Below, piece by piece: positions 43,861 through 58,854 of a stretch of 64,000 nucleotides of DNA; the first letter of the stretch is position 1, and each line of letters starts with the position of its first letter. The notes beneath the pieces are model-generated. The model was not told the origin of the DNA. It worked only from the letters and a program-made list of their open reading frames with translations, and made no database searches. Made by a program: the position numbers and the translations under genes. Source of the stretch: Chondrosia reniformis (lineage: Eukaryota; Porifera; Demospongiae; Chondrillida; Chondrillidae); NCBI GenBank assembly GCA_947172415.1, contig OX359199.1, positions 7,269,884-7,333,883 of the forward strand. The letters run 5' to 3'.

Positions 43861-46800
43861 TTAATTCAAAGCATAATTATAATTGTTTCCAAATTTGTCA
43901 TCAAATCTTTTGTCATCCAGTCGGCTCATGGCATCAGCCACTCGATCCATACTTCTCCTTTAAAAAGATAGGTAGTTGCATTATTTGTTAAGTGGCTTAA
44001 CTACAACATTTCACTAACTTGTTAAAAACAATCTTTTCCAAACGTCTTCTAGAAGTGTTTTTCAACTTTCTGAGGTCTGTTAATCCTTGATTCTTTCCTT
44101 CTGTATAAATATCACAGCCACAATCAGACACAGTTACAAGACTATATATTCCATAAGAGCAGTCTCGATAAAATCACTTAATAGTTGTGACCATGTGACT
44201 TAATAGTTGTGACCATGTGACTTAATAGCTGTGACCATGTGACTTAATAGTTGTGACCATGTGACTTAATAGTTGTGACCATGTGACTTAATAGCTGTGA
44301 TCATGTGACTTAATAGGTGTGATCATGCTTAATAGCTGTGATCATGTGACTTAACAGCTGTGATCATGTGACTCTCAACCAAACCTTTCCTTTTTCTCTT
44401 CATTTTCCCTTTCCCCTTCTGACTGACTCCTAATGTCACACCAGTTGCCCTTTCTATGTCTTGCTGAATGTCTTGCCAAAGCTCCGCCTCTTTAGAACTT
44501 GTAGTGGGAGTGTCATCCTCAGATTGTAATGACAGGGGTCTACCCACATCATCCCGTGGTATAATGGCTCCATGAAATGGACACTTCATACAAAGATAAC
44601 TTACTTGTAACACAAACCAATCAATAAAATGCAGCTCACAGACTAACTAACTTTCAACCTATCTTTTCGAGGGCATAGTCTTCCATTCGGCAGAGGAGCT
44701 CGACAAGTGTGTTCAATTGGTTCAAACTTGCCAGCAAATTGAATCACTCTCCGCTGGTCCTCCTAATAAGGAAATGTTATGTTATACACAGCAACATTCT
44801 AACAGAAGTGATCACTCACTGGAGCCATGGTGACCTCATGGTCTGTGGAAGACCAAAATCGGTGGAGAGATTCAAATCTGAAGTGGAACACAACCCTACA
44901 TAACTACTAACACCTAAACAAAGCTGGCAAAACTCACTGATGAACTGTAGGGACCTTGACGCTATCACTTGTGTGGTCCTCCCAGTTGATGAGGTCCTTG
45001 TCGTAGGGCACAACTGGCACTTTTGAGGACGCTGGTCCACTTTGACACTTCACCTTTTGGGAGGGCCCTGCAGCGAGCTGATTGGCTGGTTCAAGGCACT
45101 GTCGCTTCTTCAAGACTTTCAATTGAGCTGCTAAGGAGGTGGGGTCAGCAGACTCCTCCTCATCCCTCAGATGGGAAGCACTGGGAGTCCACTCACTACT
45201 TGTCGACACTTTTGAGGCAGTCCTAGGGCGTACAGGAGGAGCTTTAACAGAACTGCTGGGTTTACTGGTGACTAGAATATCGTCCTTCAGCTCTAGTCCA
45301 TTACTGTCAACTATACACAATTCTCTATACTTCTCTACAGCCAATAGTAGTTTGGTTTTCATTTGTAAAATTTGATGAAGTTCACCATCCAAATTCAACT
45401 TGGGGCACATCTACACATTTAAATATTACCATGACAACACAACATGAAAATTCATATCCTATATACGTACTTGCATGCACATGCTGCAGTGGGGCAGAAA
45501 GGTGCTCCAGACCTGTCTAACACAGTCCCTCATATTGCTGATGATACTGGTGTTGTTCTCACTGAGCTGGATAGTAACCCTACCACTAAGGGGCATCTCA
45601 ACTGACACTGCATAAGACTTGTGTGGGATACCATGAATCTGAAGATCCGAGGCTGAGGGATGTGATTCCTCCTCCTTTAGATGATCCACATCAACAGGCT
45701 CCTCCCCCTTCTGATAGTCCACATCAACAGGCTCCTCCCCCTTCTGATGGTCCACATCAACAGGCTCCTCCTCCTTCTGATTATCCACAGTAACAGGCTC
45801 TTCCCCCTTCTGATGGTCCACGTCAACAGGCTCCTCCCCCTTCTGATGGTCCACATCAACAGACTCCCCCCCCTTCTGATGGTCCACGTCAACAGGCTCC
45901 TCCCCCTTCTGATGGTCCATGTCAACAGGCTCCTCCCCCTTCTGATGGTCCACGTCAACAGGCTCCTCCCCCTTCTGATGGTCCACGTCAACAGGCTCCT
46001 CCCCCTTCTGATGGTCCACATCAACAGGCTCCTCCCCCTTTTGATGGTCCACAGTAACAGGCTCCTCCCCCTTCAGATGGTCCACATCAACAGGCTCCTT
46101 CCCCTTCAGATGGTCCACATCAATAGGCTCCTCCCCCTCAGGGACATCGACCCATTCTGTATCCTCATCACTTGATTCCTCAGAGTCAGTGATGTAACCT
46201 TGCCAACCTCTAAGAGGGGAACCCCCTTGTCTAGGAGAGGTCCGATAGAAGTCTGTGCCATCAAACTTGGGAAGCAGCAGCTGAAAGCAGTTTTCCAATT
46301 GTGTCAACACATTCTGTATTTCAAGGTTCTTCTCTGCATGGCAACACACACATGTACTGAATGGTAAACAGGTCACAGGTCTATAGCTAGCATGATATAG
46401 AACATACTGTCCACACCTAAATGGGTTGAGAGAGCTGACCTTGCATCTTAACTTTGAGGGATGCTGCTCTCTGTTCACTGACCAGTCGCAGTCTCCTCTC
46501 CCTATCTTCTCTTGCTCGTCGTGTTGCCTCATTCTCAGCCTCCAACTCATCAAAATTGACCTAACAACACCAAATATGGAAGACTCAATTCATTTTATTG
46601 CCATGGCAACTGTGTTGTGACAGGCACCTTTATCTGGTTCTTAAGGTACATGTACCCGAGCTTCAGTTTTGGGTAGCCACTGCCATATGCCTCAAACCAC
46701 TGCTTCACTGACAGGAGGGACTGTTTCTTCAATGACCTTGCCGCCGGGAGAGGGAGGGGGAGTGGCTCCTCTGGGTCCATACCCACTGTGAGCTGTAGAA

Positions 46801-47215
46801 AATCTTGAAAATTGTCTATAAGTCGCTCCCTAAAGATGTGCGACCTCTGGAAGAGTTCTCTGATGGTTTGGAAGGCAGAGAGGCGGACTTCAGAGTGTTT
46901 CTCATGAAGGTGGTGGAACAGTAGTTCAAAACTTCTTGTAACATTACTATCACTTCTCCTATAAATGTACGACACGTAGTTCATTTATAAATGAGCTAAA
47001 GTCAACAAACTTCACTCATCCACATACACTATATACTGTATACGTATGATTATAGCTGAGAATGATAAAATGAAGATTATGACATATTAAAGATGACTTG
47101 ATTCTCACTTGCAAATACTCTTAAGTTTTTTAAGATGGTTCTCGTTCACTGTAGGTAGGCCGGAGTGAGTCACAACTTCAATTGACTCCTTTAATTCCTC
47201 TTCACTACCGTCCAT
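43861..47215 (-). CDS. UVSSA: UVSSA, UV-stimulated scaffold protein A (transcription-coupled repair)
   Basis: Ten exons (47109-47215, 46628-46958, 46440-46560, 45471-46333, 44938-45410, 44820-44895, 44659-44762, 44385-44599, 44019-44100, 43861-43957) give 822 aa; human 709. The N-terminal VHS-like domain carries [20 protein letters not shown] and [20 protein letters not shown] (human: HAEIRLSAFQIVEELFVRSH, then NFQEFLELTLGTDP). The C-terminal DUF2043 region has [40 protein letters not shown] and the ending [20 protein letters not shown]. Role: recruits TFIIH and USP7 to stalled RNA polymerase II. Exon 4 is enlarged by a run of about 14 acidic 11-residue repeats absent from the human protein. 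It is divergent from LMAN2. Confidence 0.93.
44185..44372. repeat. 22-bp minisatellite in UVSSA intron
   Basis: About eight copies of a 22-bp unit (cttaatagttgtgaccatgt plus ga) start within 15 bp of the splice donor of the exon at 44385-44599 (minus strand). Confidence 0.9.
45675..46145 (-). repeat. 33-bp coding repeat in UVSSA ([11 protein letters not shown])
   Basis: About 14 in-frame copies of a 33-bp unit encode an 11-residue acidic repeat, [11 protein letters not shown], with variants (PVTVDHQ, PVDMDHQ, IDVDHLK). The period is a multiple of three and there are no stops in the gene frame. Reading frames on the plus strand are shadows. Confidence 0.95.
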
Positions 47216-47279
47216 CGTAAGACGGGACTTTCCCTAGTAGACCTCAAAAAAGGGCACGTTACGCAAACTGTTGGTGAAA
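47216..47279. promoter_or_regulatory. 64-bp divergent promoter interval, UVSSA / LMAN2
   Basis: The two start codons face away from each other with 64 bp between. No TATA box is visible. Shared bidirectional control is inferred. Confidence 0.6.
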
Positions 47280-48993
47280 ATGGACGTTAGGCTGTGGCTT
47301 TGTTTAGTCTTCCTCTTCCAGGCTCTGCCAGTGTGGACTAGCGAACCGATTGACGAAGAAGACGGATACTATGTTAGGGAATACTCACTTTTAAAACCCT
47401 TTTCAAGTGCGTTATACCATCTATCTCTAGGAATGGCTTAGTTGACTGTCTCCTTTTTTCTATCGTAGCCGTTGGGCAGTCTTGGGACATTGTCGGGTCG
47501 ACTGTAGTGACTTCTACCTTCATCCGACTCACTGCGGACAGGCAGAGCCAAACTGGGGGCATTTGGAGTAACATGGTTAGTGACGCATGCAGTCGGTCCG
47601 TCAAGCGAGTATTGTGTATTGTATCATAGAGTATCTATGATTGTATGCTGTGTAGCCCGTTCGAATGCACAATTGGGAAGCTGTACTTCACTTTAATGTT
47701 CACGGAAGCGGCGACCTCCTGTTCGGAGATGGGATGGCCTTCTGGTATACAAGGGACCGACTGAGACGTGGTGAGTCTTCCATTGACCGTAAGCAGCTCC
47801 TCCTCCCGAGAGTAGTGAACTGTAGAGTGTTGTGTTTCTGCTTGTTAGGCAATGTGTTTGGAAGTACAGACTACTTTACTGGATTGGGAATCTTCTTGGA
47901 CACATACAGCAACCACAACGGTCCTCATGAGGTTAGCTGCTGGGTCATGTGACTGCCTGCTGGGTCATGTGACTGCCTGCTGGGTCATGTGACTGCCTGC
48001 TGGGTCATGTGACTGCCGGCTGGGTCATGTGACTGCCTGCTGGGTCATATGACTGCATGCTGGGTCATGTGACTGCCTGCTGGGTCATGTGACTGCTGGC
48101 TGGGTCATGTGACTGCCTGCTGGGTCATATGACTGCATGCTGGGTCATGTGACTGCTGGGTCATGTGACTTTTGTCTGTTACAGCACGAGCACCCATACA
48201 TTTCTGCTATGATAAACAATGGGACACTGTCTTATGATCATGACAGAGATGGAACACACAGTCAAGTTGCTGGTTGTCATTCAAAGTTTAGGAAGCGTAA
48301 ACACGACACTTACGTCATCATTTCCTACATTGACCAAGTTCTCTCGGTAAGAATGATCACATTTAGTGGTACACACTTGCATGTATCCAATATGTGGTCA
48401 TTTTAAGAATGTCCTGCCTTTGGTTAAGGTGCACACAAATGTGGATGGGACAGATGACTGGATCGAGTGCTTTACTGCAGAGAACATTGACCTTCCTACT
48501 GGCTACTACTTTGGGCTGACAGCTGCGACTGGTGAACTGGCTGATAATCATGATGTCGTAGCTTTGCGTACCTTTGATGTTGACAGTGAAGTGCAGGAAG
48601 CAATGAAGGTAATATTAGCTTGGTGCAGTAGCACTTTTGGTAGGAGACAATGAAGACCACTTTTGGTATCTTGTTGCTCCTCCTCTCTCTCACTGAGTGT
48701 GTAACGATCTCTTCTTCCTGTTTTCAGGATTGGGACAATGTTGTGCCACAGGCTCCCGGAGCTGAGGCTCCACGGCGTAAGTAGTCTGTCAGTTCCTAGC
48801 TCCAAATGTGATTCATCTACTCCCCCTCCTCCCCACAGGTCACATCGATGATCCAAAGCAGGTGGTTGGGACGAGAGGGTGGTTTATATTGAAGGTGCTG
48901 ACCGTAATACTGGTTCTGGTGGCTGTGGTGGGCGGAGTTATTTATATAGTATACAGCAGGAAGCAGCAGCAAGCAAAGAAGAGGTTTTATTAG
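47280..48993 (+). CDS. LMAN2: LMAN2/VIP36-type L-type lectin cargo receptor
   Basis: Eight exons (47280-47406, 47469-47575, 47656-47770, 47849-47931, 48185-48346, 48429-48608, 48728-48776, 48839-48993) give 325 aa; human VIP36 has 356. Signal peptide MDVRLWLCLVFLFQALPVWT, then the legume-lectin fold: STFIRLTADRQSQTGGIWS, HGSGDLLFGDGMAFWYTRDR, GLGIFLDTYSNHNG (carbohydrate and Ca2+ loop), YISAMINNGTLSYDHDRDG, and GYYFGLTAATGELADNHDVV. A single transmembrane helix (VLTVILVLVAVVGGVIYIVY) leads to the cytoplasmic tail SRKQQQAKKRFY, whose final KRFY matches the VIP36 trafficking signal. Role: binds high-mannose glycoproteins in the early secretory pathway. Two introns use GTTAGT/GTTAGC donors. It is divergent from UVSSA. 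Confidence 0.95.
47936..48172. repeat. 20-bp minisatellite in LMAN2 intron
   Basis: About eleven copies of the 20-bp unit ctgctgggtcatgtgactgc begin 4 bp after the donor at 47932. Some copies share the cat/cata variants, suggesting higher-order duplication (a block of about 100 bp repeated). Confidence 0.93.
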
Positions 48994-51806: not shown

Positions 51807-53896
51807 ATGGCTACCGACAGGCCTCACATGATAGGATCACCAGGATTCTCTCCGTGTAGGTTCAGTAATCAGTAGAGTTAAATGTAGAACATGACACGAC
51901 ACGACTGTATATTCTGATTTTATTAGCTTTAAAATACGAGATCAAATTGATTGAGAGTATCACCCAATCTGGAACAGACAATGATGCTCCAACTGTCAAA
52001 AGAGTCAAGTCTTGTTTTGAAGTGTTGGATGACCTACTTCCCTCGTTGGGAGTGTTCCAGCACGTGATGAAGATGGTGAGAGATGAAATGTACACTGCCA
52101 TCTTCTCCAAGGAGCTGACATCGGGACACAAGGAAAGTGGAAAGTACCTCTCCAGGGTTCCTTACTTTACTGTAGCACTCAAGTGGCTCAACAAGAGGTG
52201 AGAATATGCACTGGTTTTCTCAAATTAACTTAGGTTGATGAAGGCAGGTTGAATAGCTGTGCAAGTTGTTTATGAAAAGGGAGTTAATATAAGCAATTAC
52301 AAATGTGATAGAAATAATCATTTGGATATATTCTATCACAAATGTTTATGTTGATTTATATTATAAATTATTCCATTTAGGTAATCTTTCATTGATGTGC
52401 AGTTTTGTCAACTTTTGTTTATTATTCTGCTTTAATCATGAGTGTCGATAGATAGTACTTAGACCACTAATGTTCTAAAGTACACTTTTTTAATTTCCCT
52501 ATGGTACATTCACATACTTATTACTTTCACTGTATCCAAATAGAGATGGTCAAGTGGCTTCTTTGGAATCAGAGTTGACTAACCTGAAGGAGGAGTACGT
52601 GAAGGAGCTGACATTGAAGGAGAAACACCAGACTGAACTGCTGAGCTGTCAAGAGGCGCTTGAGGCCAGTGAGAAGGAGAGAGCCACTCTACATGGTCAA
52701 GTGGAGGACCTGAGGAGAGCCCTGAAGGACAAGGAACAAGAAATGTCTGATAAATTGAGGGAGCAAGAGCAGAAGATGTTTGATCAAGAGTTTCAGCTCT
52801 GCAAACAGGAAGTGAGCACCTCACTGTACGAGAGCTGTTCCCATATGTATCTCCTTACATCAATCTACACTCCTTCATGTAGAGTGAATCAAAACGTGCC
52901 AAAGATGTTATTGAGAATCTGGCTCCATTTAAGAAGACTTATGACAATCTGCAACTGAGTAGGTTATGACTTGTTGGACCTACAGACTCTTTGTGACTCT
53001 GAAATGATTGTTCAGAGTTCTCTGAACCGCGAAGCAAGCCGTCACAAAACAAGGCGAGTACTGTGAATGTTGCCCTTTCCAAGAAGATTCAGTTACAGTC
53101 AAGTCTGAGGAATGCACTGAACACACAGAAACAACTTCAGCAGATGCAAAACTCACTCATAAATGGTACCCATCTTGACATACGTAGAGTAGCTGATCTT
53201 TGACTAGATAACCTTTAACCCTTACAGACTATGAGGCCTTGTTATTGAAGCATGCAAGTGGACTAGCCAGTACATCAGCTGTGGACGTTCACATGATGGT
53301 AGGCTGCAGCATCAAGTGGTGACATTGCATAATGTACTTACTTATAAGGAGCCCTCTTTTCCATATTAGGTCATTGCAAAACAGAAGGACTTCAAACAGA
53401 GCATTGGAGAACTGTCCAATGAAGTGAGAGCTCACAACGAAACGAGCAATTATATCAGTTCAGATGTGCTCTAATAATATTTGTAGACTACACTGTACAA
53501 ATATTGTATTGTATTGTATTGTATTGTATTGTATCGTATCGTATCGTATCGTATTGTATTGTATTGTATTGTAATGTATCGTATTGTATTGTATTGTATT
53601 GTATCGTATTGTATTGTATTGTATCGTATTGTATCGTATTGTATCGTATCGTATCGTATTTGTATGTATATCCCTTGTGATACTAGAGTGATATGTGTGT
53701 ATGTATCTCTATTCAGTTGGGACTCCTGAAGACTCATATTCTGCAACTTCAAGACCATCTCGAGGTGCTTAAGGGTGTGAATGAGAAAGACGACCCTCTG
53801 ATTGCTATGGGCAACCCTAATCACCCTAACAATCCACTCCACTCACAAGAACAGATAATGAATAAATATGCAGCTGTAGTAAGTGTGTTAAAATGA
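51807..53896 (+). CDS. Coiled-coil protein, function unknown (possibly TSNAXIP1-like)
   Basis: Nine exons (51807-51855, 51927-52197, 52544-52811, 52883-52958, 53016-53165, 53228-53298, 53370-53423, 53717-53896) plus read-through of the last donor-like gtaagt to a stop give 372 aa. The N-terminal 100 residues form a helical domain (FEVLDDLLPSLGVFQHVMKM, ...YFTVALKWLNKRDGQ). A long coiled coil follows (SLESELTNLKEEYVKELTLK; EKERATLHGQVEDLRRALKD), then further helices, ending HSQEQIMNKYAAVVSVLK. The N-terminal block loosely recalls the TSNAXIP1 N-terminal domain, but the match is weak and I leave the gene unnamed. The gene could continue if the gtaagt at 53879 is a real donor, although no downstream exon was found before the next gene. 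It is divergent from the ALMS-motif gene. Confidence 0.72.
53502..53660. repeat. GTATT/GTATC pentanucleotide microsatellite
   Basis: About 31 pentamers that alternate between gtatt and gtatc in blocks, in an intron of the coiled-coil gene between exons ending 53423 and starting 53717. Confidence 0.93.
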
Positions 53897-54171: not shown

Positions 54172-55784
54172 TTAATCACTGTGGTAGTCAACCTCTCCGA
54201 TACTGAGGTCCTCAAACTGGTCCACAATAGTGTCGTCGTCCTCCTCATCAAACTCTCCATAGGCAGCTCGTCTCCTGTCGCTGGCATGAGGATCATCGTC
54301 ATCACCAGACACAACAGAGGAGATGGTGGATCCTGTACTGATGTGTGGTTCACTGACATGCACCAGTGGCTTCTTGTTTGGGCAGTCACCCACTCCATTG
54401 CAAGCCTCACACTTGTGACGGCGATGTGTCTTCTTCTTTATTGTGTTCTTATTCGGTTGAATCTCCGGCAGTACCTCAGCACCACACTTGTAACACGGGC
54501 TCTTGGTACCATATGAGGTCCAACCTGTGAAGCTGTGACCACACGCACACTTGTGGACACCAATTCCAAACTCCTTCTCCCTCGGGAGAGCATCATACTT
54601 CTGGTAACACCTATTGGATACAGTGTGGGAGGGGCACAGTGTGGGGAAGGGCACGGTGTGGGAGGGGCACAGTGTGGGGAAGGGCACGGTGTGGGAGGGG
54701 CACAGTGTGGGGAGGGGCACGGTGTGGGGAGGGGCACGGTGTGGGGAGGGGCACGGTGTGGGGAGGGGCACAGTGTGGGGAGGGGCACAGTGTGGGGAGG
54801 GGCACAGTGTGGGGAGGGGCACAGTGTGGGGAGGGGCACAGTGTGGGGAGGGGCACAGTGTGGGGAGGGGCACAGTGTGGGGAGGGGCACAGTGTGGGGA
54901 GGGGCACAGTGTGGGGAGGGGCACAGTGTGGGAGGGGCACAGTTTGGGGAGGGGCACAGTGTGGGAGGGGCACAGTGTGGGGAGGGGCACAGTGTGGGAG
55001 GGGCACAGTGTGGGGAGGGGCACAGTGTGGGAGGGGCACAGTGTGGGGAGGGACACAGTGTGGGGAGGGGCACAGTGTGGGGAGGGGCACAGTGTGGGAG
55101 GGGCACAGTTTGGGGAGGGGCACAGTGTGAGGAGGGGCACAGTGTGGGGAGGGGCACAGTGTGGGGAGGGGCACAGTGTGGGAGGGGCACAGTTTGGGGA
55201 GGGGCACAGTGTGGGGAGGGGCACAGTGTGGGGAGGGGCACAGTGTGGGAGGGGCACAGTTTGGGGAGGGGCACAGTGTGGGGAGAGGCACAGTGTGAGG
55301 AGGGGCACAGTGTGGGAGGGGCACAGTGTGAGGAGGGGCACAGTGTGGGGAGGGGCACAGTGTGGGAGGGGCACAGTGTGGGGAGGGGCACAGTGTGGGA
55401 GGGGCACAGTGTGGGAGGGGCACAGTGTGGGGAGGGGCACAGTTTGGTAAATGGACATACTACACTACAGGTGTCCAATGAAAGGCAGGACAGCATACAA
55501 TAAGAGAACAGAAAGATGTTTAAAACTTCCATCCCGACTTCCTTATATGTCTCTCTAGCTGTTCAGTGAGAGATAATATATAGCCACATGACATACCTTT
55601 TACATATTGAAACTGGTTTCTTTGCTGGTACCTCCCTCCACCAGTTTTTTTGACATTTTCCACACGCAAACTGTCTCATTGCCATCACCTCATGTTTGGA
55701 CTCGTGTTTCTCAAGGTTTTCCACAGTCAGTTTTGTGGGTTTGGGAAGAGGAGTGTCTCCTTCATTAGGTAACTTACCTGCCAT
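54172..55784 (-). CDS. Shiftless (SHFL/C19orf66)-like zinc-ribbon protein, copy 1
   Basis: Two exons (55597-55784, 54172-54610) give 208 aa; human SHFL is 291. Core motifs: MRQFACGKCQKNWWREVPAK, KPVSICKRCYQKYDAL, FGIGVHKCACGHSFTGW, SPCYKCGAEV and EPHISTGSTISSV, then an acidic C-terminus (EFDEEDDDTIVDQFEDL). These align with human RQFACSSCDHVWWRRVP, KEVSRCRKCRKRY, GLAEFHCPKCRHNF, SPCYGCG and NPHISSGST. The Cys pairs form a zinc ribbon; a further HKCEACNGVGDCPN cluster lies in the position of the human HSCSAADC region. Known role of the human protein: interferon-induced RNA-binding factor that inhibits -1 ribosomal frameshifting and restricts several RNA viruses. Whether this homolog does the same is inference. 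The human N-terminal extension is missing. Its single intron (54611-55596) is filled by a GC-rich minisatellite of about 820 bp. Confidence 0.88.
54622..55446. repeat. 18/17-bp G-rich minisatellite in the Shiftless-like intron
   Basis: About 46 copies of ggggaggggcacagtgtg, with 17-bp variants that drop one G, plus tgg/ttt variants. It fills about 84% of the intron. It has no stops on either strand, which produces large spurious frames (up to 428 codons) rich in repeated Pro/Ser/His/Cys or Gly/His. The G-runs could form G-quadruplexes on the plus strand, which is the template strand for this minus-strand gene. Confidence 0.95.
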
Positions 55785-56320
55785 GCCTCTCAGCTAAAGG
55801 TTTACAAATCAAAGAGTTTCAAACAAGACCCCAAGATGGTATCTCTAGATATTGATATCTCTTTGCTTCTGTGTCTCACGTAACTAATAACAACAAAATG
55901 TGGTTTTCATTTATACTTGTGTTTTGGGCATGACTCAACAGGAATGTGATTGCTAATTCTTAAGAAGGGTTTTCCTAGAACTGTATTGCGTGATTGGATT
56001 GTTTGGATGTGGCTGAAGATGGCACCCTCAAGGACTTACCCTAGACCCGCCTCCTTGGACCTCCCTCACGCCCAACACACACAACTGTTGGAACAACCCA
56101 CCCACATTGTGTGTGTGTGGTCTGTGTGAAACAGCTGGCCTCAGTGGAAAGAGATCTGTCCTGGTTTTATAATGATATTCATGGTTGCATAATTGTATTC
56201 ATGATGCTTCCTTCCTGGAACTGAAGGTAAAAGTAGAATGTATCTTCACTTCCTGGAATTACTTTTACAATCAAATCAATAGCTCTACTACTGAATGTAG
56301 TGTATTTTCGTTTGAATAAA
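55785..56320. promoter_or_regulatory. Divergent interval between the two Shiftless-like genes
   Basis: 536 bp between the head-to-head start codons. It contains a short gt tract (tgtgtgtgtgg) and no coding signal. A shared promoter or enhancer is plausible. Confidence 0.5.
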
Positions 56321-57007
56321 ATGGCTGAAGGAGAGCCGTTAAGACTTTCTGAGGAAAACCTGGCAAGGCATAATGAACTGTTGGGTGATATTGAGTTTAG
56401 ACAGTTTACCTGTAAGAGGTGTTGGAGGTCTTGGTGGAAAAGGGTTGCCATGAGAAAGCCAGTTTCCAAGTGTAAGAAATGTTATAAAAAGTATGACGCA
56501 CTACATCCCAATGACGAGTTTGGAGTGGCAGAGTTTGTGTGTCAATGTGGCCACACCTTCACTAGCAGAGGCAGGGCCACCTCTGCCTGCTCGTGCTACA
56601 AGTGTGGGGCGCTGTGTAAGGTCAGTCGCATCATCCCTGGCCGCAAGGAAATGAGAGGTGGTGGGTCTGGTAATAGACACAGCTGCGACTCGTGCAATGG
56701 GAAAGGAAACTGCCCCAACTTCAAACCAGTCATCAACTTTAGTTCTCTGCACATCAGCACTGGATCTACAGGCTCCTCTGTGACAGCTCATGAGTATGAA
56801 GTTGAGTTGCCTGCGTTTCCTCATTTGGATGGAATAGAAGAGACTGAATATTCCAATGACAGTGGATCTGAATGTGTGGGCGTGGCTGATGAGGGGGAGG
56901 AGGGCGTGGCTGATGAAGGGGAGGAGGAGGGGGAGGGGTCTGATGATAGTGACGAGGGAGCTGGCAGGAGGAGGAGAAGAGGAAGTGATGACAGAAGTAG
57001 CTCGTAG
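56321..57007 (+). CDS. Shiftless (SHFL/C19orf66)-like zinc-ribbon protein, copy 2, intronless
   Basis: Single exon, 228 aa. Core motifs: FRQFTCKRCWRSWWKRVAMR, KPVSKCKKCYKKYDAL, FGVAEFVCQCGHTFTS, CSCYKCGALCKVSRIIPGRK, HSCDSCNGKGNCPNFKP and LHISTGSTGSSV, ending in an acidic Glu/Asp/Ser tail with two GVADEGEE repeats. Order and spacing of cysteines match copy 1 and human SHFL; GLAEFHC in human corresponds to GVAEFVC here, closer than copy 1 (GIGVHKC). The intron of copy 1, which falls inside the codon before CYQKYDA, is absent here. That suggests intron loss or an RNA-mediated copy. The upstream ATG at 56321 is chosen because it aligns with the family start (LSEENLARH like LTVENLEKH of copy 1). 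Antiviral activity is inferred from family only. Confidence 0.9.
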   Translation: MAEGEPLRLSEENLARHNELLGDIEFRQFTCKRCWRSWWKRVAMRKPVSKCKKCYKKYDALHPNDEFGVAEFVCQCGHTFTSRGRATSACSCYKCGALCKVSRIIPGRKEMRGGGSGNRHSCDSCNGKGNCPNFKPVINFSSLHISTGSTGSSVTAHEYEVELPAFPHLDGIEETEYSNDSGSECVGVADEGEEGVADEGEEEGEGSDDSDEGAGRRRRRGSDDRSSS

Positions 57008-57205: not shown

Positions 57206-57211
57206 AATAAA
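57206..57211 (+). terminator. Poly(A) signal candidate for Shiftless-like copy 2
   Basis: aataaa, 199 bp after the stop of the intronless copy. Motif match only. Confidence 0.45.
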
Positions 57212-57340: not shown

Positions 57341-58854
57341 AACATTGAGTGGTGCAAGAGTTGCGGTGCCCAGGTCAGGTTACAACTCCAACAGCCCTCA
57401 AGTATTAACAGTTCTGTGTATTCTCTATCCTTCCTGTAGACGCTTTACTGCCCTCACAAGCAGTTCCAAGAAGCACTCATTGTCTCTATACCTCAGAGTA
57501 CTACACACATCAAGCTTGCTCGACCTCACCTCACAACTTACAAGAAGAACATCGAACAGTCAGTACACACCCCTCTCATACCACATCTCCTCTCACGCCC
57601 CTCTCATACCACATCTCCTCTCACACCCCTCTCATACCACATCTCCTCTCACACCCCTCTCATACCACATCTCCTCTCACACCACTCTCATACCACATCT
57701 CCTCTCACACCCCTCTCATACCACATCTCCTCTCACACCACTCTCATACCACATCTCCTCTCATACCACCCCTCTTGTGCCACGCCTCCTCTCACACCCC
57801 TCTTGTTCCACACCTCCTCTCACACCCCTCTCATACCACCCCTCTTGTGCCACGCCTCCTCTCACACCCTTTTTCTCCTGCCTTAGACCTCTTATTCTGC
57901 CAGAGGCCACTTCTGCTCTGCAGACTGTACCAGGTTACGATGTCAGTACTTTGTATAACCCCATACATTCAATTAAGATGCTACTCTTGTTACCATAGCA
58001 ACCAAACTTTACAGCAATGTGGGATATATTTTGGAAAGAATTTCCTCTTATGAATGGTCTCCCACGGCAACTGACTCTGGTACTCTTTGGTCTTGTGCAT
58101 GCAGTTACCATGGAAACTACACTGTGGTACTTGTCTACTCTGGTAGGACCATCTTCTCTCTCTTATTGAGTTATTTTATGCAAGTCTTCTAGCAAAGGAC
58201 AAATATGTGTGTACAGAGGACACAGCACTGGATACTCCAAATAGTACACTAATGGTAGGTGTACATACAATAATAATATAGTCCCTATACTATGGTATAT
58301 AGAATATAGTCACTGTACTATGTATATGGACATACATACAATAATAATACAGTCCCTATACTCTGGAATATAGACATAAAATATATTATTGTCCTTTTAC
58401 CAGTAGACAATGCAGTGTGCATTATATGCATATTCTCTGAACTATGTAGAACCTCTTTATTGACTTCCTCCATCAAAGATACGCTGGTGTGACTCAGGTT
58501 GTTGGATGTGCTTTGTATGACATACTGAGAGCTCTGGAGCAGAACTACTCAAACCACAAAGTGAGCATCGCAACATTGTTCACATACAGTAAGTGTGATC
58601 TCTCACTAGAAGCATGACCTCGTAACTGGTTCACATACAATAAGCGTGATCTCTCGCTAGAAGCATGACCTCTAACTGGTTCACATACAATAAGTGTGAT
58701 CTCTCACTAGCATCATGACCTCGTAACAATGTGTACATAGTTTATAAAGTTTTGTCATGCTACTCTCTGAAGCTTGTCTGAAAGGACACATGTGTAAAGG
58801 TGTTTGTCTTAACAGACATTCTCCCACTCCCTCTCTTACCCTTCTCTCTCTTCC

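Follow-up and report, generated by a model that had tools for sequence, protein, structure and literature searches.

The head-to-head pair and its family

The kidney sponge, Chondrosia reniformis, carries two adjacent and divergent genes, here called A and B, which both belong to the SHFL family, and we consider this assignment practically certain. The pair adds further members to a known family; the PF15135 tag already stands on its database relatives. PF15135 is named as the SHFL family in a figure legend of PMC8310280. With a cut-off of 29.8 bits, this profile scores 99.8 bits against the protein of gene A (E-value = 2.3e-28) and 85.1 bits against that of gene B (E-value = 7.1e-24). An earlier note on this DNA had claimed SHFL homology for both genes, and profile search, sequence search of the PDB and fold comparison all bear it out. 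Specifically, no other family outscored PF15135 in a Pfam scan of A and B, which thus fall into it with no better-scoring rival, and an NCBIfam scan of B and of P0001, a public protein of 208 aa close to A, returned nothing. The top PDB match by sequence is human SHFL (9kbo) for both A (E-value = 1.1e-22) and B (E-value = 3.6e-16), the next matches being far weaker (E-values of 0.59 and 0.17, respectively). Human SHFL is also the closest solved structure to both predicted proteins according to Foldseek, with modest TM-scores for the best chains (0.46–0.48 by query, 0.36–0.38 by target), because the alignment leaves out the tails and the human N-terminus.

The window analyzed here is the whole stretch of 64,000 nucleotides at G000:C11:7269884-7333883, within a 7.63-Mb chromosome-scale contig of the sponge (C11, 7,633,987 bases), so that the description of an invertebrate-type genome was correct. 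The whole assembly searched comprises 117,379,552 bases in 15 contigs. The published genome note (PMC12181767) gives 117.37 Mb and 14 chromosomes, 117,390,217 bp in a plot, and a mitochondrial genome of 17.45 kb. The reported head-to-head order and the position of the pair were confirmed, with gene A on the minus strand, gene B on the plus strand and 536 bp separating their two ATGs. Searches of the whole assembly with the gene A protein and with PF15135 retrieved only the exons of A and B (three matches each), while a PF15135 search of 14 control genomes gave no match. The pair is flanked by a 28-bp minisatellite (57566-57839) and a TATTG pentanucleotide array (53502-53669). To one side, at 44332-48650, the minus strand has a UVSSA N-terminal domain and a match to DUF2043, and the plus strand has exons of a legume-like lectin.

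Two readings that would take the pair out of the family or out of the sponge have very little left to them. A convergent likeness of some other zinc-ribbon family could be imagined, since small CxxC ribbons are common and weak secondary matches to other ribbons do occur; however, PF15135 matches every one of the 24 proteins in alignment A2, including B, the second PDB match to the family profile is more than 46 orders of magnitude weaker in E-value, and the family also has its disordered phospho-motif in common. We find convergence hardly credible, and an unrelated zinc-ribbon family was dropped as a candidate, as none beats PF15135 for A or B in Pfam. Contamination of the assembly by DNA of another animal has an even more negligible probability: no points in its favor were found, and against it the pair sits inside the chromosome-scale contig with ordinary animal neighbors (UVSSA and the legume-like lectin) 5.5–12 kb away, and gene A contains an intron.

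Concerning gene A, exon 1 (55784..55597, minus strand) begins with the ATG at 55784 and encodes an N-terminal helix and the start of zinc site 1 (RQFACGKC); on its own it reaches 28.7 bits in the genome profile search, slightly below the PF15135 cut-off. A GT..AG intron (55596..54611, minus strand) divides zinc site 1 between CKR and CYQK, and exon 2 (54610..54172, minus strand) encodes the remainder of this site, zinc site 2, the third cysteine cluster, the phospho-switch motif, the acidic tail and the stop. When four donors were tried with one acceptor, two kept the frame open to the natural stop, giving the 208-aa model and one that is three residues longer. P0001 differs from A at three residues (K46T, I60K, N116K). 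Its longest contig, of 756 bp, is too short for the 1.6-kb genomic gene, so that P0001 comes either from spliced cDNA or from an allele lacking the intron, and as it matches the 208-aa variant it supports the splice junction. It also suggests that gene A is expressed. Residue I60 (55605-55607, minus strand), which corresponds to the RNA-binding R131 of human SHFL, is Lys in P0001, a difference that is possibly a polymorphism. Most of the intron is filled by a 17-bp minisatellite of about 49.5 copies (ACAGTGTGGGGAGGGGC, 54620..55447), to which all 19 exact genome matches of a 26-base probe belong, and which stops close to the 3' splice site. A-type relatives on long contigs appear in the database as complete proteins, so this intron may have been acquired in one lineage only. 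Gene B (56321..57007, plus strand) is a single exon encoding a 228-aa protein of the SHFL family with the zinc sites, the phospho-switch motif and the acidic tail; an AATAAA at 57206..57211 (plus strand) is its possible polyadenylation signal.

Zinc sites and phospho-switch compared with human SHFL

Human SHFL (Shiftless, C19orf66, RyDEN, IRAV; PDB 9kbo; PF15135 UPF0515) is an antiviral protein of 291 aa that is induced by interferon, while the sponge has two shorter ones of 208 and 228 aa from genes set head to head. Zinc site 1 is formed by C112, C115, C132 and C135 in human, C41, C44, C61 and C64 in A, and C31, C34, C51 and C54 in B. Its 2-16-2 spacing and the 19-residue linker to site 2 are identical in the three proteins. 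Zinc site 2 (human C155, C158, C174 and C177; A C84, C86, C102 and C105; B C74, C76, C92 and C95) opens with CxC in both sponge proteins instead of the human CxxC, and B has an additional Cys90 inside it. The third cysteine cluster is spaced 24-2-5 in A and 22-2-5 in B, compared with 27-4-12 in human. The assertion that the sponge proteins have the same cysteine spacing as human SHFL is thus correct for site 1 with the linker, but not for site 2, for Cys90 of B or for the third cluster. By analogy with the family, these cysteines would bind zinc.

The -1PRF domain (164-199) and the PABPC-binding domain (102-150) of human SHFL, as delimited in PMC9230503, both have counterparts in A and B, and zinc site 2 overlaps the former. 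Replacement of R131, R133 and R136 in human SHFL weakened RNA binding together with PRF inhibition (PMC8310280). At the equivalent positions A has I/K/Y and B has K/K/Y, P0001 having Lys at the first, and these positions vary over the 26 family rows compared; the change of the RNA-binding R136 to Tyr is shared by both sponge proteins. This argues against RNA contacts identical to those of human. The human N-terminal region (about 1-82) is absent from A and B, whose Pfam stretches begin at 88 and 91 of 271. Among 16 rows inspected, human excluded and secondary stretches set aside, the best PF15135 stretch begins between 60 and 126, so that membership in the wider family does not appear to depend on the N-terminal region. 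After the motif, both proteins end in an acidic tail, as had been noted, with D and E making up 41% of 44 residues in A and 35% of 72 in B.

The HIS(T/S)GST motif of human SHFL is a CK1 phospho-switch required for anti-frameshifting, acting through T250 and T253 (PMC12724340), and the title of PDB entry 9kbo names Ser249, Thr250, Thr253 and Ser256 as phosphorylation sites. Its claimed presence in both sponge proteins is confirmed, with T and S at the positions of human T250 and T253. The human segment 244-256 (HISSGSTVATCLS) corresponds to HISTGSTISSVVS in gene A (54307..54345, minus strand), where S249, T250, T253 and S256 are represented by S, T, S and S, and to HISTGSTGSSVTA in gene B (56750..56788, plus strand), where S249 and T250 are kept, 253 is Ser and 256 is Ala. 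The 26 family rows consist of the human segment, A, B and 23 other proteins, P0001 being nearly identical to A. T250 is a T in all 25 rows that have the column, the 26th (P0007) being without this stretch. A Ser or Thr three residues past T250 is found in 20 of the 26 rows, A and B included, and is absent from P0007, P0010, P0012, P0021, P0023 and P0024. The mean majority fraction is 0.77 for 244-253, 0.55 for the zinc core (105-199) and 0.30 for the rest of 200-280. T250, T253 and their neighbors were already reported as highly conserved by ConSurf (PMC12724340), so that finding them conserved is no novelty in itself. Conserved amid an otherwise variable stretch, the motif points to a switch already present in the common ancestor of the 26 rows. 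Following the human protein, the motif would also be phosphorylated in sponges.

Relatives, a likely deeper kinship and a possible link to PABP

Three protein searches listed 12, 6 and 15 proteins, of which 24 were different; the third scored the best 7,992 candidates by shared words. In the tree, one branch sets off eight rows, A among them (A-type, support 96/88). Another sets off six, with B among them (B-type), and its support of 90/92 falls short of what the program counts as firm. The two SHFL homologues A and B parted long ago. A single clade of the sponge A and B was neither supported nor rejected (p-AU 0.287) in this unrooted tree, where the human row of 198 residues is a long branch. 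P0006 and P0007 (A-type) and P0016 (B-type) each lie on a contig of 455,195 bp; the equal lengths indicate one and the same contig, and the A and B sublineages therefore seem to be linked in another genome as well. P0024, from a 29.8-kb contig, groups with P0010 and P0021 on a long branch. By eye, the B-type P0014 (269 aa) has the zinc-site-2 ribbon three times in tandem. Viral or prokaryotic relatives were also considered, and none was confirmed in single-protein scans, the reach of which is close relatives: in viral_contigs P0013 gave 76 pattern matches and P0024 gave two, and in genome_contigs P0001 gave 566. P0013 is the database entry for protein B; its contig there measures 7,880,420 bp, unlike C11, and perhaps comes from another assembly of the species.

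Beyond the family, the zinc site 2 ribbon likely shares its origin with the 3CxxC_2 ribbon (PF17180), judging from profile comparisons. The SHFL family profile aligned with three sponge PF17180 domains (L015-L017) at a probability of 89.8% in hhalign (E-value = 1.8e-6, a single comparison), over 41 columns covering zinc site 2 only. A PDB search with the three-row PF17180 profile placed human SHFL first (E-value = 0.024), followed by a match at 0.11. P0024 scored 26.3 bits against PF17180 (cut-off 27), two of the 24 family members matched it at an E-value of 0.1, and a Pfam scan of A and B found no match to PF17180 or PF13695 at an E-value of 1. The RNA-binding domain of ZAR1 (PDB 9jko) is counted among the closest known systems. 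In hhalign, the SHFL profile was negative against the sponge PF13695 pair (1.3%). The two PF13695 (Zn_ribbon_3CxxC) matches found in the genome, at G000:C11:6862689-6863006 and 7435880-7436200, share the chromosome of the gene pair and lie about 460 and 110 kb from it. Linkage to PF13695 was dropped as evidence, given the negative hhalign result and the location of the PF17180 matches on three other chromosomes.

PAM2 is a ligand of the MLLE domain of PABPC. A PAM2-like motif (LNPxAxxF) was found in P0009, P0011, P0019 and P0022, that is in four of the 25 sequences scanned (the human segment left out), and these carriers are four of the five rows of one tree branch. The same motif arose in 9 of 50,000 shuffled proteins. 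The Pfam PAM2 profile matched P0022 (E-value = 0.009) and P0011 (E-value = 0.21), both under the cut-off, and gave no match in P0009 and P0019; the motif scan found none in A and B. In its carriers the motif is possibly a direct PABPC dock, lying outside the region that matches the human binding site.

Proposed function and the shared intergenic region

A and B can be described as compact proteins that would bind RNA, built of two well-conserved zinc ribbons, a third cysteine cluster, a flexible CK1-type switch (HISTGSTxSS) and an acidic tail. Zinc site 1, equivalent to human 112-135 and lying within the PABPC-binding and RNA-binding stretch, would contact RNA and the poly(A)-binding protein, while zinc site 2, placed over the human -1PRF domain, would act on stalled or frameshifting ribosomes. 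Phosphorylation by CK1 at HISTGST would license the association with translating ribosomes, and the job of the proteins would be the restraint of aberrant, viral or retroelement translation before interferon existed. We lean toward A and B being a CK1-switched, RNA- and ribosome-associated translation regulator, and hold this somewhat probable; RNA binding, CK1 control and ribosome association would each follow the work on the human protein. The narrower proposal of a specific antiviral inhibition of frameshifting in the sponge is put forward tentatively, and we would not expect it to prevail. The changed R131, R133 and R136 and the missing N-terminal region speak against a simple transfer of the human function. 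An antiviral use and a division of labor between A and B are guesses.

In a different reading, the sponge SHFL proteins would regulate the translation or stability of mRNA in general and play no antiviral part, much as the RNA-binding protein ZAR1 and 3CxxC_2 proteins do, and antiviral use would have been added in vertebrates along with interferon control; we rate it as rather unlikely. Far less probable is that B (or A) is a degenerating duplicate, leaving one functional gene only. This would agree with the 24-bp repeat in the tail of gene B, with Ile60 of A at a position that contacts RNA in human SHFL, and with the protein search for B, in which B alone exceeded 60% identity and no cDNA-like copy appeared. 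However, the frame of B is open, its motif and core cysteines are retained, and among the matches listed it has five relatives at 54–60% identity (spanning 47–75% of its length) and falls in a B sublineage of 90/92 support; A is near-identical to P0001.

The same zinc core and switch threonine in the sponge pair suggest that the working part of SHFL is about as old as animals. The core of human SHFL is probably far older than interferon, and the suggestion that the locus predates interferon was a fair inference for the protein core. The core cysteines and the T250 switch look essential, while the N-terminal region and the exact arginines look later or variable. The literature found presents SHFL as an interferon-stimulated gene of mammals or vertebrates. 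Among the matches listed, in a collection mostly outside subscription journals, neither titles nor abstract openings dealt with an invertebrate SHFL, and a paper on LARP1 evolution mentions C19orf66 once (PMC11349179). With the pair, the role of SHFL before interferon becomes an experimental question, and the state of this interferon-stimulated gene from before interferon can be put to the test.

The 536 bp between the start codons (55785..56320) are a candidate bidirectional promoter. They contain three STAT-like palindromes of the form TTCYNRGAA, at 55972..55980, 56212..56220 and 56250..56258, the latter two being TTCCTGGAA, and all are taken as leads only. One could picture the pair as a pre-interferon inducible antiviral module, with a shared promoter of STAT palindromes and two SHFL proteins that, controlled by CK1, block frameshifting on the RNA of viruses or retroelements; we regard this as improbable. 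If true, vertebrate interferon would have taken over an existing STAT–Shiftless circuit rather than made one. Three palindromes compare with 0.12 expected from the window, and 0.4% of all segments of 536 bp reach three, those of this cluster counted; with the looser TTCN3GAA another segment reaches four. As ten motifs were scanned, the STAT-like cluster was chosen after the fact. The two copies of TTCCNGGAA in the intergenic region are 38 bp apart and lie, by eye, inside a short imperfect inverted repeat, so that they may not be independent. In the 117.4 Mb of the genome TTCCNGGAA occurs 1,711 times, compared with 1,547 for its reversed control. The scan of the 536 bp found no full ISRE, no GGGRNNYYCC and no CRE. 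It also gave one looser kB motif (0.12 expected), two copies of AANNGAAA (0.62 expected) and one AP-1 palindrome, counted on both strands (0.27 expected). Elsewhere in the genome, 14 STAT_bind exon matches at G000:C2:2828186-3543426 apparently represent some seven STAT-like copies in a stretch of about 0.7 Mb, and two IRF DNA-binding domains are found at G000:C3:7975747-7976043 and 9347868-9348161.
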